Position numbers and translations under genes: made by a program. A stretch of DNA of 63,313 nucleotides, taken from Ectocarpus siliculosus. Taxonomy: Eukaryota > Sar > Phaeophyceae > Ectocarpales > Ectocarpaceae. Each line of letters opens with the position of its first letter. The stretch's first letter is position 1. The notes under the pieces were generated by a model that was given only the letters and a program-made list of their open reading frames with translations, had not been told where the DNA came from and ran no database searches. Positions 41,951 through 48,600 of this stretch are shown in pieces. The stretch spans positions 60,325 to 123,637 of the forward strand of contig FN648514.1 in assembly GCA_000310025.1 (NCBI GenBank). Direction: 5' to 3'.

Positions 41951-42462
41951 TGTCTGCGTGTGTAGACAACACGACAGCTTCAGGAATCCTGCGGGTTTCA
42001 TGGCACGTAGCCATCTGTGTGAGGAGTGAGGAGCACCAGTGGTAACGAAGATGCTATGGGATACCATCGACATTATATTTTGATCATATTCACGTCTTGT
42101 CTCAGTGGAACGCAGTAGCAACAGCGGCATCGCTCACTTGCTGTGTTGGCTGCAGTCATTATATCTTCCAGAAAAAGAAGCCCCGCCCCCCACCCCCGTC
42201 CCGTCCATAAAATTGCCCGCTCTCTCTCGCTCGCTCTCTTTCCCTCTCTCTCTTTCGGTTCGAGTTTGCTGCTGTGCCTGCGTGCCTGCTGTGATGCGGC
42301 GCGTTATTGAGAATTTTTGCAAAACAAGGCGTTTCTCGGGGGGGGTAGAACAACAATCTCACAGTCCCATGGGCCAAGCTTGGCCAAGCCGTCAAGTCAG
42401 CAGCAGCAGCTCAGGCGAGGAAGCCGTAGAATAGCAACAGCAGCAGCAGAAGCGGCGCCACG

Positions 42463-42464
<2 letters not shown>

Positions 42465-42518
<54 letters not shown>
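42465..42518. repeat. (GA)n microsatellite
   Basis: About 26 GA units shortly upstream of the transposon's left end. Confidence 0.95.
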
Positions 42519-42519
<1 letters not shown>

Positions 42520-42722
42520 TCAGAGAGAGACATCCACGCCGGGTGAGTGCCTGTATAAAGGGTAATATTTATAATTATAGTTTGCCTTTGCCGATGATAC
42601 TGCTGTAATCCCACTCCGCTCGCCAGGCACCCGCACTGCCCGGAAATGGGGTTCTCGAGCACTCCACGTGGTTTGTACACACGTTGATTTGTTTTGCAGG
42701 CGCGTATACCGTAGGTTGCATA

Positions 42723-43160
42723 AGATACCACACCCGTGTGATAACATTTTCGGGAGGACGAAAGTTATCACACGGGTGTGGTATTCTGTAGGGGGTGTGA
42801 TATCTTATGTCACCCGTGTGATAAAGTGTACTCACAGAGTCTCACCAACAGGGGGTGTGATAACAAGGGGGTGTGATAACAAGGGAGTGTGATACCGTCG
42901 CCCGTGTGATGAAGCGCGCTCACAGGACCCGGCTTACAGGGGGTGTGAAAACAAGGGGGTGTGATAACTTCGCCCGTGTGGTGATACTCGCTCACAGGAC
43001 CCGGCCTGACGGGGGGGTGATAATGTCGCCCGTGTGGTTGCAGTGCGCCCACAAGACCCTACCTACGGGGGTGTGATAATAATGTCGCTCGAGTGATGCG
43101 GTGCGCTTACAGGAGGCACCCACGTACAAAGGGCGTCAAGGGGTGTAAAACAGGTGTGAT
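42723..43160. repeat. Left subterminal repeats of the transposon
   Basis: At least ten GGTGTGATAAC/GTTATCACACC motifs alternate with GCTCACAGGACCCGGC-type boxes at 42830-43110, giving a rough 70-75 bp spacing. Related motifs occur inside the right end. They probably act as protein-binding sites. Confidence 0.75.
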
Positions 43161-43544
43161 AGCTAGGATGGCTCACACCACTCCATCACGTACATGCTTT
43201 CCCACGTGCATCTTCGCAGTATCCTTTGGATATTCTTCGCATAGGTACACAACGAAGACGTAGAACCGATACCTCATAGCGGTTGTGCCGGTGTTGTGTG
43301 CGACAAAACGACAGCACACAGGCACCTGGACGACGCAACCACTTGCAAGACTTGCGTTCACCACTCAAGCTGGAACCACATAGGACGCAAGCAAGTGCCA
43401 GCTACATATCAACCAAAGCTAGAAACCATGAGGACAAGCGACTACCGAAACATATGAAACCCAGGACAAATTGGCTCGAATAGCAGCTTTGGTTGACTTG
43501 ACCATGGCATGCAACTACGGTAGGTAGATACCAGACAAGACACC

Positions 43545-46500
43545 TCAGTCTATGCAAATAACGTCCGCCCCCGGCAAGTCTGCCATGACCTCAACCTCCG
43601 AGTCATCGTTGCCTTCGCCATCTCCCGAGCTGTCATCGTCGTCGATTTCCAACACCTCCAACAAGTCGGCCATCGTCTCCCCCTCCTCCGATGGGCCAGC
43701 CTCCTCCACGCCGGCATCGGCCGCGTCGCCGTCTGCACGAAGTGGTTTCCCTTGGGCGTCGGATTTTTTTGAGCTCCTTGTTGGCCCACGCCTCGTCCTC
43801 AGATCCATCGAAGGCAAGGGTCATGCCAGCCTTCCTCCAGCTCGAACGGATGCTCTCAGGGTCCACTTCATCCCACGCTTTCTTCACCCACTGCGCGAGC
43901 AATCCCCTCGATGGGGGATCCGGGTAGCCGCGGTCGTTGCGCACGGCGTCGGTGGAGGCCATGTGGTCATCGTAGAGCCTGGACATGTTGGACTTGAACA
44001 GCTTGTTGATAAGTCCATCGCAAGGCTGGATCTTGGGCGTTAGGCCTCCGGGGACAAAAAACAGCTTCGTGTTGGACTTGTCCATCGCTTCCTTGCACAG
44101 GGATGTCTTGTGCACGGTGTAATCGTCCCACGATAGCAACGTGTCCGGCTGACGGTAGTTGCCCAGGACCCCCTCGCGACCCGGGCGCCGGTTTCACACT
44201 TGGGGGAGCCAAACATCCCTGAAGACGCGCTGCGTGTGCCACGCCTTGTCGTCCACGGCGTACACAACGCTCTGAGGGTATACTATCCCCTTCTTGTCCT
44301 TGCCCACCTTGAACTCTCGTTCGATGCTGTTGGCAGCGGGGGTTTTGCCCGGCGCCGTAGGCTTACCCTTGAAGATGAGCAGCGCCGGGAGTTTGCCGCC
44401 CTTCATGTTTGCTGCAAGCACGGCAGTGATCCGCAACTTTTCCTTTCCACCGGTTTTGATGGCCACCTCTTTCTGACCGGTGTGCTGCGAACGACAAAAA
44501 TAAAAAGCAATAAGCAATAGAGAAAGCAGAGGCGACGAAAAAAGTCGATTTTGTAGATGAGAATGACAGCTCTTCACGCACAAAGCAACGTATGGGTTTT
44601 GCAGTACAGCGATGATGGATGCGAATGGTAAGAAACTTCTAACCCGGCATAAGCGCAATACCAACGTCGTCTAGCCTTACTGGCTGGACACTGAGTACGT
44701 ACGGCAAGAAATATTGCATCACAATGCCCACTGTTTGCACGGAATGCCAAGAAACGACCAGACAGGCACATGACTCGAAGCAACACTATTGAACTCACCG
44801 CCACGGTCGACGTGCCAGCGGGCTCCATCCACACAGCAGTTTCATCCATGCTGTAGCTCTGCTCCTCCTTGAACAACAGAGGTGGCTTCGAAGGCGCATT
44901 GCTCGTTGCCCCCCCCATGCTCCGTCCTCCCCCACCGTCGATTCCTCCGTGACGAAGCGCCCTCCATTCCTTGACGGCTTTCATGGCAATCGCAGGCCAC
45001 CCGGAAGGGAGTTTCTGGCCTTGCCTGGTAACCGCCCGGAATGACAACCGGTTCTTCCTAAGGAACATCCTGCACCAGTGAGTCTGCTTGTCGCGGTACT
45101 TTCTACTGCCCCCCAGGTCGTTCGCTGCAGGCCTCGGGCCGAACCAAAGCGAGTTGAGCGATACCACCTTGTTCTTGATCATCCTTGTAGAGACGCGGGC
45201 AGAGGTGGCTTCCGAACGAACATCGTTGATCCAGTCGAGAAGTTCGAGCTCGGCCTCAGCGTTTGACCTAACCCTCCCCGTTCTGAACGACTTCACGCTC
45301 CGGGCTTTCTTCTTGCGTTTGGCCCCGAGCTGGTCTGCCTGTTCCAGCTGCTTCTCGTACTTTGTTCTGTCTTTTATCCACGCAGAGAGTATGATCTTCT
45401 CGGGAATCCCAAGCACTCGTTGCGCATACGACACACCGATGGTTCCATTAGGCCCCTGCGCCCCCGGGCTTGCATGGTCGCGTACTTAATGGCGTTTACT
45501 TTGAATTCCAAATCGTACCGCTTGAGTTTCTGGCCACCACCAAACTTAATGGGGAAGTTTGGTGGCTCCAATTCCAGCGGCTCTCTTTTCCTCTTTCCCT
45601 TGCCCTTGCCCTCGGCCGGCGTGCCGTCGAGACGCCCACCGAAACCATCTGTCCACTCCTCTGACTCTCCAGGAAACATGGCGTCGCCGACGGGCGCCGC
45701 TGCGGCTGCTGTCGTCGGTGCTTCAGGCAGGTGCACGTTCCTGAAAAGCGCATGAGTTCGAGGAAGCAACACAACATGTAGCATACGTGTCGTTAAGTGC
45801 AGTATCTGTAACAATGCGCTCGCTCCAACGACCATCAGGCAAACGTACCAAAAATACGATGGCTAGCGGATAGCTCTGACAACGGCCACCAGGTTGAGAG
45901 TCATGTCGTCCACGCTTGCAAGGTACAGAGGGTGAGCAGCTGACAGCACCTATTTCGTATCTCACACAAACAGGCACGAACTGCTGTCGAGGTTATGTTT
46001 ACATATTTGCACGTGTTGGGTACGGGTTTCGCAGTCTTCCTACCGAAACATCACAAACACAAAAAACGGTATGCGGAAACGTGTCGTGTGTGTGAAAAAA
46101 ACTATCCAGTAAACATTTCGCCCACACCACAATATATGAACTACATGTAAATGTAGTGTGTACATGCCAATGTACAGTGAGGCGAGCGCGACAACACGAC
46201 GTCAAAATCACATTATTTTTTCGATCTGGTTATCGATCAGGCAATCAGGCGTGGCATGTTCTTTGGTTTGCTTGAGCCATGAGAATCCTCACAAACACCC
46301 ATGTGCTGCAAACTGCAAGACGCTCTGCGCACACCTTATTTTGATGTAGACGTCGCCAGACTTCGCATGCCTGCCGCAAAACTCCGGCATATCCTTCCCT
46401 GGCTCTGCCCACAAGGGCTTGTTGGTGCACGATGGTTCTCCGCAGCGCGGTGCTGCTGCAGGGTTCTCAGCAGTAGCCGCGCTCAGGGTGTTGGTGGTTG

Positions 46501-46846
46501 GCGGGAGAGCTGCCTTTTCGGGTGTGGGTGTGGGTGCTGCGGGGTTCTCAGCAGTAGGTTCTGCTTCGCAGGTTTCAGCGGCACCCGCGGTGGCAGGCGC
46601 AGCCGGTGCTGTGGGAGTCTCAGTAGCAGTAGATTCTATTGAGCGGGCCTCAGCAGTACGTGCGGTGTCATGTGCGGCTGCTGAGGGAGTCGTCCGAGCA
46701 GCCCCACGTTCCCCCGGGGCGGGTGGAAAGAAGGACGCTATGGAGCGTGGGGCCGCCGCTGGAGTCTTACCCACTGCAGTCTGAGCCGCGGGGCTTTCAG
46801 CAGGGTTGCTAACTGCACCACCCCCCACGACATTGTCCGCCTCCAT
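43545..46846 (-). pseudogene. Transposase: EsV-1-7 motif + CENP-B HTH + DDE (pogo-like), broken
   Basis: Exons on the minus strand: 46846-46335, 45740-44799, 44484-43545, about 798 codons. Exon 1: a low-complexity Ala/Pro/Thr-rich head (residues 1-130), then C135, C140, C157, H160 in C-X4-C-X16-C-X2-H spacing (RCGEPSC...EFCGRHAKSGD), the EsV-1-7 pattern. Exon 2: an acidic/basic linker, a psq-type HTH ([18 protein letters not shown], then [17 protein letters not shown]) and a CENP-B-type HTH ending [18 protein letters not shown], then the first DDE Asp in [12 protein letters not shown]. Exon 3: HTGQKEVAIKTGGKEKLRIT, the second Asp in LLSWDDYTVHKT and the third in KIQPCDGLINKLFK, then an acidic tail. 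Splice phases agree (2, then 0). Lesions: a frameshift near 45451-45467 (G-rich run), TGA at 44194-44196, and a frameshift in the A7 run at 43764-43770. Role: cut-and-paste transposition. Confidence 0.85.
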
Positions 46847-47089
46847 GGCTCTTGCGAGCAGGTGGTGTGGTCGTGATCTCTGTCCTCACGTTGTCACACC
46901 GTGTGATAAGCAGGGGCTCCGTCGATTTAATGCGGCCCAACTTCAGGGGGTGTGGTATCTTATGTCACCGTGTGATAAAGTGACGTTTTTTGGGGGGCTG
47001 AAAAAAATAGCACACGGGTGTGGTATTGTGTACGTTTCCTGAGGGGGTGTGGTATCTAATGAAAGTGTGATATCTTATGCAACCTACGG

Positions 47090-48600
47090 TAGCGTGCGGC
47101 GTTTTGCGCAGCTGTTCGTGCAGCAGATCCGAGCAGCAGATCCGAGCAGCTGGTGCATAGCGGAAGAACCCCCCCCCCCCCCCCCCTCCTGTATGTATCT
47201 CGTTACCAGGGCACATGCCCGGCCCCGAATAGTACCACGCTGTGTTTTGGTATGATGCGCTTGCCCCTGAACGTACCCAGTTTAATATTTTAGGTTTTGG
47301 GGGAATGACGGGAGTTCGGCGCAGCCGTGTACGTTGTGCCCTTTTTTCGTGCAGCAAATCCGAGCAGCCCCGCCCAAAGTCTAAACCTTGTGGTGTGTAT
47401 CTCGCGAAGATCTGCCGAAATGTTCATCAAACCTTGCCATCTAAAAGTGTGCGCCTTTTTCCTTTTTGAAAAAATTAGGTCGATCCGATAACCTCGTTTA
47501 GAGGAAAAATCGAACTCGATCAGCAAAATGCATTTGCAGTCAATGCAACTCGGCCAGCACCAAGTAGGTGCGACCAGATTGAGTACTTGTGGTCAACACG
47601 GATTAATCGTACAAGTGGCATGATGAGTAGATCACGTCATCAAACCAGGCATCGCAAACTACACAGGGGGGGGGCAGGGGGGGTCGCAAGGCTCGAATGT
47701 CGTTCCGTTCTGCATACGTTCCAAAACCTTCTTCTGATAAACAGGCACCGACAAACGGCAAGAAAAGTCGACAAAACTGGCGAGAAGCTGAAACAGCCGT
47801 GCCGAGCCCCGTCGTGCCAAAGCGAGTGTATCGTGAAAACACTTCGCCACACATGGCACCAAATTAAACCAGAGTGCCTGTAATCTCAAATGAACGTATA
47901 TGACAGGCAGGCACCAACACTCACACTGCCTTCTGTTTGCTTGGCGGCCACGCCACCCGTGCGACAAGTTTCCGGACTTGAGCTATTTACAGATACACGC
48001 GATTTTGGCACTACCGCCGCGACAATGATCACAGGCATAAAATCTCGCCAAATGCTCCGACCGACCCCATTTTTTTTCAAAACTGCTGTATGGGTCAGGC
48101 GCACACTCATGCAAGGTTTCGGGGCTATGCAAGCAGATGGCGATGAGTTAAACACACCGATGTTTTGACCCCGGGCGAACTATACTGAAATGCCTATCAT
48201 AAATATATACAGCAGGAAAAACACCGCAAAACCTCGTCAACTTTGTGTTGACTGCGTGAGAAATGAGTTGGATGTGACGGCGGGTTAGTAATGAAGTCAT
48301 ATCCACTGGTACGATTAGCGCATGGAAGCCGTCCGAGATTGAAGCGTTGTGGAGTGCATGGAGGATGAGAGAGAAACAAACTCGTGTGCTGTGGTTGCGT
48401 TGACGAAAAGAGCGGTGAGAGTACCTACCAACGTTAGCAATTCGTGATTATTCGCATGCGCGTTAGGTATTGAAAAAAAGTACCCAACAGAATCAACGCT
48501 CCCTGACATGCGTTTCCTTTGGTAGTGGTGTGGGTTGGGGGCGAGACGCGCAAGGCACAGGTAGCATGCTCACGGGAAGCCCCAGATAATACACACCCGG
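47090..48600. other. Spacer right of the transposon, no supported gene
   Basis: Holds a poly-C tract (about 47169-47186), a G-rich tract near 47666-47680, and duplicated TGCAGCAGATCCGAGCAGC-type boxes near 47120-47140 and 47352-47370. The 5' exons of the Cys-rich gene could lie here, but no signal peptide or ATG exon could be identified. Confidence 0.4.

Follow-up and report, generated by a model that had tools for sequence, protein, structure and literature searches.

A decayed pogo-type transposon of Ectocarpus siliculosus with an EsV-1-7 motif in the first exon of its predicted transposase gene

The EsV-1-7 or IMMEDIATE UPRIGHT family occurs in brown algae and in the phaeovirus EsV-1, and one of its proteins, IMM, controls brown-algal development; in the available passages of PMC7457493 and PMC12993054 the family is hypothesised to consist of zinc-finger transcription factors. 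No biochemical test of the EsV-1-7 motif was found in the literature passages available. A transposase with this domain has been described from Ectocarpus in PMC12477816 (Genome Biol 2025;26:320), the available part of which reports TcMar-2_Ec32, a 4.4-kb autonomous element with an N-terminal EsV-1-7 domain on its transposase, and TcMar-N1_Ec32, its 217-bp MITE partner. The fusion is thus already known from that text, and a literature search recognised no other publication on it. Among pogo elements more widely, DD35D is given for Passer and Fot/Fot-like elements in the accessible part of PMC7386202.

The locus described here lies in a stretch of 63,313 nucleotides of the E. siliculosus genome (the window, G000:C93:60325-123637), and the genome searched comprises 189 Mb in 492 contigs. 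The reading preferred, at a probability of roughly 0.8 for the explanation as a whole, is that of a decayed TcMar-2_Ec32 copy with a three-exon transposase, in which EsV-1-7 was captured once and serves as an N-terminal accessory module. The features, in window coordinates, are these:

42707..47091, minus strand: pogo-type DNA transposon (TIRs; alignment of 19 near-full-length copies; published description)
42707..42733, plus strand: TIR on the transposase 3' side, TA + CCGTAGGTTGCATAAGATACCACAC (inverted-repeat search, copy alignment)
42729..43170, no strand assigned: subterminal GTGTGATA/GTGTGGTA boxes on the 3' side, candidate transposase binding sites (direct repeat families D1-D9)
43545..44484, minus strand: exon 3, rest of the DDE_1 core (DD35D) and acidic C-terminus (PF03184)
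44485..44798, minus strand: predicted intron 2, GT...AG (GT/AG in 19 of 19 copies)
44799..45740, minus strand: exon 2, where the HTH DNA-binding region is expected, with the first catalytic Asp; the window copy has a frameshift (copy comparison)
45741..46334, minus strand: predicted intron 1, GT...AG (GT/AG in 19 of 19 copies)
46335..46846, minus strand: exon 1, 170 codons + 2 nt (frame open in the window; all 19 copies read GT after 46335)
46343..46444, minus strand: EsV-1-7 motif CGEPSCTNKPLWAEPGKDMPEFCGRHAKSGDVYI (PF19114)
46727..46747, minus strand: weak PIP-box-like motif RSIASFF in exon 1 (sequence reading; putative function)
46899..47084, no strand assigned: subterminal boxes on the 5' side (direct repeats, box count)
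47065..47091, minus strand: TIR on the transposase 5' side (inverted-repeat search, copy alignment)

The element measures 4381 bp between the TA dinucleotides, or 4385 bp with both TAs. Its two TIRs (42707-42733 and 47065-47091), 27 nt long and 96% identical, enclose exon 1, which upholds the view of the initial annotation that this exon lies inside the inverted repeats and travels with the element. The arrangement TA-CCGTAGG...CCTACGG-TA is found at both ends in 17 of the 19 copies as extracted, L014 and L022 being the exceptions as cut; TIRs flanked by TA are expected of a pogo element, the TA duplication here being read from the ends of the extracted copies. With up to two mismatches, a 21-mer of the TIR occurs 554 times genome-wide (269 + 285), whereas the reversed control gives 0. 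The genome also has short elements with both ends, and the three that were read (L067, 221 bp including the TAs, that is 217; L068, 222 bp; L069, 230 bp) are MITEs whose similarity to the autonomous element is confined to its ends, the outermost 24-30 bases, and to parts of the box repeats. By comparison with the pogo superfamily, the transposase would cut at the CCGTAGG ends and insert at TA, the DD35D core doing the cutting, and the HTH region would recognise the terminal repeat, given that the MITEs have in common with the element no more than an end of about 24-30 bp.

The subterminal boxes cluster at the two ends of the element: copy L013 has 18 of them, all close to one end or the other (0.175 expected from mononucleotide shuffles), and four lie in the 58.9 kb of the window outside the element. 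Three loci of a sister clade, considered below, have seven boxes (L060, one internal), three (L059, one internal) and none (L066). Two of these three loci have boxes and no motif, which makes the boxes an improbable target for EsV-1-7.

Beside the 3' end of the window element, 637 bases of flank (42070-42706) are 100% identical to the flank of copy L010 (G000:C33:173078-173714). In the genome search this stretch was found whole only in C93 and C33; on the 5' side the flanks cease to match precisely at the TIR, and the elements themselves are about 0.5% apart. Such a shared flank could have arisen by partial segmental duplication or by a mis-join of the assembly at the repeat.

Exon 1 of the transposase gene encodes an Ala/Pro/Thr-rich linker, with the EsV-1-7 motif near the 3' end of the exon. 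In all 19 copies GT follows 46335 at the donor and AG precedes 45740 at the acceptor, and the junction is in frame. The initial annotation had exon 1 joined in frame to an exon with helix-turn-helices and a DDE core; the junction stands, but an open frame into the DDE core is not present in the window copy. Here exon 2 has an early frameshift, the joined frame reaching its first stop at codon 293, and exon 3, 940 nt long as against 936 in the open copies, contains a stop codon at 44194-44196 (ORF end 44194), the DDE_1 profile (PF03184) matching at 43633-44139 with 36.8 bits and at 44194-44664 with 21.0 bits, just under the cut-off of 22. The copy in the window is a pseudogene; in L009 and L010, close relatives of it, exon 2 is broken as well. 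The three-exon frame is open from start to stop in four of the 19 copies (L011, L012, L013 and L015; exons of 512-518, 883-943 and 936 nt). When the exons of L013 are joined, the predicted protein of 796 aa has both EsV-1-7 (32.9 bits) and DDE_1 (68.2 bits) above their cut-offs, so intact copies have motif and core in one frame. As in pogo elements, this DDE_1 core has a DDxD triad, consisting of three catalytic Asp with 35 residues separating the last two (DD35D). Of the other domains named in the initial annotation, the CENP-B-type HTH (HTH_Tnp_Tc5) reaches 15.5 bits in joined L013 and at most 21.5 bits in related Ectocarpus proteins, below the cut-off of 22.2, and a psq HTH had no Pfam match in the window ORFs, joined L013 or the related proteins. 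A search of solved structures with the transposase and with the motif gave no credible match (best E 0.32 and 0.51).

Exon 1 might instead encode a separate EsV-1-7 protein, regulatory or accessory, in an element with two ORFs, the transposase having an ATG of its own within intron 1 or exon 2. Read through the donor, exon 1 stops 15 codons further on, giving a 185-aa ORF; the four open copies have an in-frame ATG upstream of the exon 2 acceptor, and a second ATG is found at MFPGES, the start of the annotated relative P0001, one of the seven best protein relatives (P0001-P0007, annotated in Ectocarpus sp. CCAP 1310/34). The invariant GT/AG sites of the 19 copies nonetheless argue for splicing, as do two of these relatives, the sister gene models P0004 and P0006, which join an exon-1-like N-terminus to the transposase, and PMC12477816, which in the part available calls EsV-1-7 an N-terminal domain of the transposase. 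Two separate ORFs are thus unlikely, and the spliced three-exon transposase is the layout retained below.

The EsV-1-7 motif of the transposon is real and belongs to the PF19114 family. On the ORF at 46289-46846 (minus strand), PF19114 (EsV_1_7_cys) scores 35.6 bits (E 8.2e-9) against a Pfam gathering cut-off of 25 bits, far above chance, and a second HMM, made from 94 EsV-1-7 motifs of the same genome, also detects it (28.3 bits, E 3.4e-7). The exact C-X4-C-X16-C-X2-H spacing on which the initial annotation had based its assignment is present at 46367-46444 (minus strand), the sole such spacing in the six frames of the window. A motif of four fixed residues is weak by itself, and exon 1 is rich in Ala, Pro and Thr, as a chance spacing in low-complexity sequence would have it; the profile match, however, spans positions 1-34 of 35, 20 mononucleotide shuffles of the window gave a mean of 0.1 such spacings, and the motif is kept in 13 of the 19 copies. 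The probability of a chance origin is negligible, and it was ruled out on the profile match together with the shuffle comparison. Tandem repeats, typical but not obligatory in host EsV-1-7 genes, are absent from the transposon, which has one stretch.

The initial annotation suggested searching the genome for other TIR-bounded copies with the exon, and 19 near-full-length copies, the window copy included, were aligned and keep exon 1. Two internal deletion derivatives (L027, L028), one copy that is largely N (L063) and the diverged L061, L064 and L065 stand outside these counts. Mean pairwise divergence is 1.74%, the closest pair differing by 0.23%, and this low divergence indicates that the family moved recently. 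By region, divergence is 1.19% in the motif, 2.16% in exon 1, 1.64% in intron 1 and 1.16% in exon 3. The four ligand residues are in one frame in 13 copies, including L017, L025 and L026, where other lesions nevertheless break exon 1, and one of the four open copies, L015, has lost the motif His. Measured against L064 (C43), an older relative, dN and dS are 0.24 and 0.64 in the motif and 0.46 and 0.93 in the linker, which suggests a mild signal of constraint on the motif from a contrast of 38 codons with one degenerate relative, in which the linker ratio is also below 1. Five copies (L016, L018, L021, L023 and L024) are inserted at different sites and have in common two deletions of one base each, within the motif and directly behind it. 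The motif is accordingly not required in cis: either this sub-lineage moved in trans or the motif is dispensable.

Older traces of exon 1 are also found. Fragments 84-87% identical to it lie in L028 (C10:2325754) and at C30:3211729, C30:481539 and C62:109691; all four end at query 444-446, inside the EsV-1-7 motif, and in L028 this end is the junction with the 3' part of the element, which suggests an older non-autonomous deletion family. In L061 and L065, relatives that are diverged or deleted, exon 1 was not found by tblastn.

When the genome was searched with the C-terminal DDE piece, 58 matches were obtained, with a sister clade mostly 71-74% identical. This pogo clade, present in the same genome and, as P0002-P0007, in Ectocarpus CCAP 1310/34, has an exon layout similar to that of the window transposon; in L059 and L060 exon 2 is 50-54% and exon 3 about 68% identical to it. 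Unlike the window transposon, the sister clade yielded no EsV-1-7 motif wherever it was read, in three loci (L059, L060 and L066, from a clade with further loci at C76, C6, C1 and C75, which were left out) and in two proteins: the HMM from the genome's motifs gave no row at E<=10 in the three loci, and PF19114 had no match in exon 1 of L059, L060, P0004 or P0006. One further protein of the neighbourhood, the EukProt gene model P0008, has a Noc2-like region fused to sister-clade transposase sequence and is probably a gene-model artefact of a nested insertion.

That the three sister loci read are without the motif points to one gain, and a single gain after the split from the sister clade is the simplest reading. 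The common ancestor could also have had the motif, with the sister clade losing it later. Such a loss would agree with the small sample, three loci of the sister clade and two of its proteins that have an exon 1, and with L064, in which a degenerate EsV-1-7 motif (21.6 bits, below the cut-off, one ligand Cys replaced) means that the motif is not brand new. It agrees less well with the lack of any row at E<=10 in the sister loci, with the chance-level row (5.1 bits, E 6.2) in the more distant L062, and with a search, scoring 150 of 388 candidates, that found no motif in the vicinity of the other sister loci. Ancestral presence is on balance unlikely. The domain capture suggested by the initial annotation is upheld as a probable acquisition, given the sister loci and P0004 and P0006 without the motif, although its donor is not visible. 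As for L064 itself (C43:269500-275300), the locus is TIR-bounded, with an interior unlike the transposase and an ORF that by eye resembles part of a retroelement.

Exon 1 carries a second short motif, which resembles a PIP box. It reads RSIASFF or RSIASYF in the window family, and the similar ITSFF is present in exon 1 of L059, L060 and P0004 despite the diverged linker; the site is not kept in P0006 (IASCF) or L064 (PTSPFF). A PIP box usually starts with Gln, a first residue that the exon-1 motif is without. The pogo transposase has a PIP box according to the available part of PMC4103810, and by that analogy a contact with PCNA through RSIASFF is possible.

Where the motif came from was examined against the host family. 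A search of the genome for EsV-1-7 gave 880 candidates, the best 150 of which were scored and all exceeded the cut-off, and from 30 loci among these top matches a set of 94 motifs was taken that is biased towards the consensus, 37 of 131 motif strings having been dropped as not fitting C....C...P.[FY]. To these 94 the transposon motif is on average 37% and at most 44% identical. Among themselves the host motifs average 65% identity, and 85% with the nearest neighbour, and even the most divergent of them averages 46% to the remainder. In an unfiltered search, with 150 of its 388 candidates scored, identity outside the transposon family was about 32-52%, the closer matches being family copies, deletion derivatives and L064. 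By sequence comparison, no host donor is apparent among the 94 motifs. Two scans of viral contigs gave no pattern match and 18 pattern matches respectively, none of the latter confirmed as an EsV-1-7 locus. Fusions of EsV-1-7 and transposase were sought in a protein database, with nine hits among 7998 candidates scored, none with PF19114, and further such searches gave no candidate and six candidates, none at E<=10.

The initial annotation had also raised the idea that the EsV-1-7 family owes its spread to the element, and the transposon and the large host family do occur in the same genome. This idea found no support: the motif is a distant single repeat, host genes can have tandem arrays (as in L030), and the best 150 host matches score 65-81 bits against about 33-36 for the transposon. 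With no motif more than 44% identical among the 94, seeding or spread of the host family by the transposon is very improbable, and the element was rejected as source on the motif's divergence.

Returning to the single capture, EsV-1-7 would have been acquired by the ancestor of the sub-family after its split from the sister clade, and would serve neither catalysis nor basic end recognition. The motif may be an accessory, probably zinc-binding, N-terminal module that adds DNA or chromatin contacts; such a binding or tethering role is the one favoured, tentatively and at a little under even odds. The narrower proposal that a captured host (or viral) module steers or tethers the transposase to the chromatin sites of EsV-1-7 developmental regulators is distinctly unlikely, but, if true, insertions would be a readable map of EsV-1-7 binding. 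The motif-bearing transposase and the sister transposases, seemingly without motif, form a natural domain-swap pair, and a comparison of the two in binding, excision and choice of insertion site would reveal the function of the EsV-1-7 motif directly.

Compared with the described systems, the window element matches TcMar-2_Ec32 in length (4385 bp with TAs), N-terminal EsV-1-7 and architecture, as far as the accessible part of PMC12477816 goes; the window holds one decayed copy, and the match is one of description. TcMar-N1_Ec32 appears to be matched in the same way by L067, which without its TAs has the published length, and by the slightly longer L068 and L069, with shared ends. With Fot/Fot-like elements and Passer, as presented in the available text of PMC7386202, the element has in common the DDE_1 core, DD35D and the TA target, and differs from them in its extra N-terminal EsV-1-7 and its subterminal box arrays; N-terminal HTHs are expected in those groups, whereas here HTH_psq was not detected and HTH_Tnp_Tc5 stayed below its cut-off. 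With the EsV-1-7/IMM family the transposon shares PF19114 and the C-X4-C-X16-C-X2-H pattern, as seen in the genome's motifs, but it has one diverged repeat fused to a transposase where L030 has a tandem array. What goes beyond the account in the available part of PMC12477816 is the contrast with the sister clade, the sub-lineage whose motif is broken and the absence of a close donor in the host.
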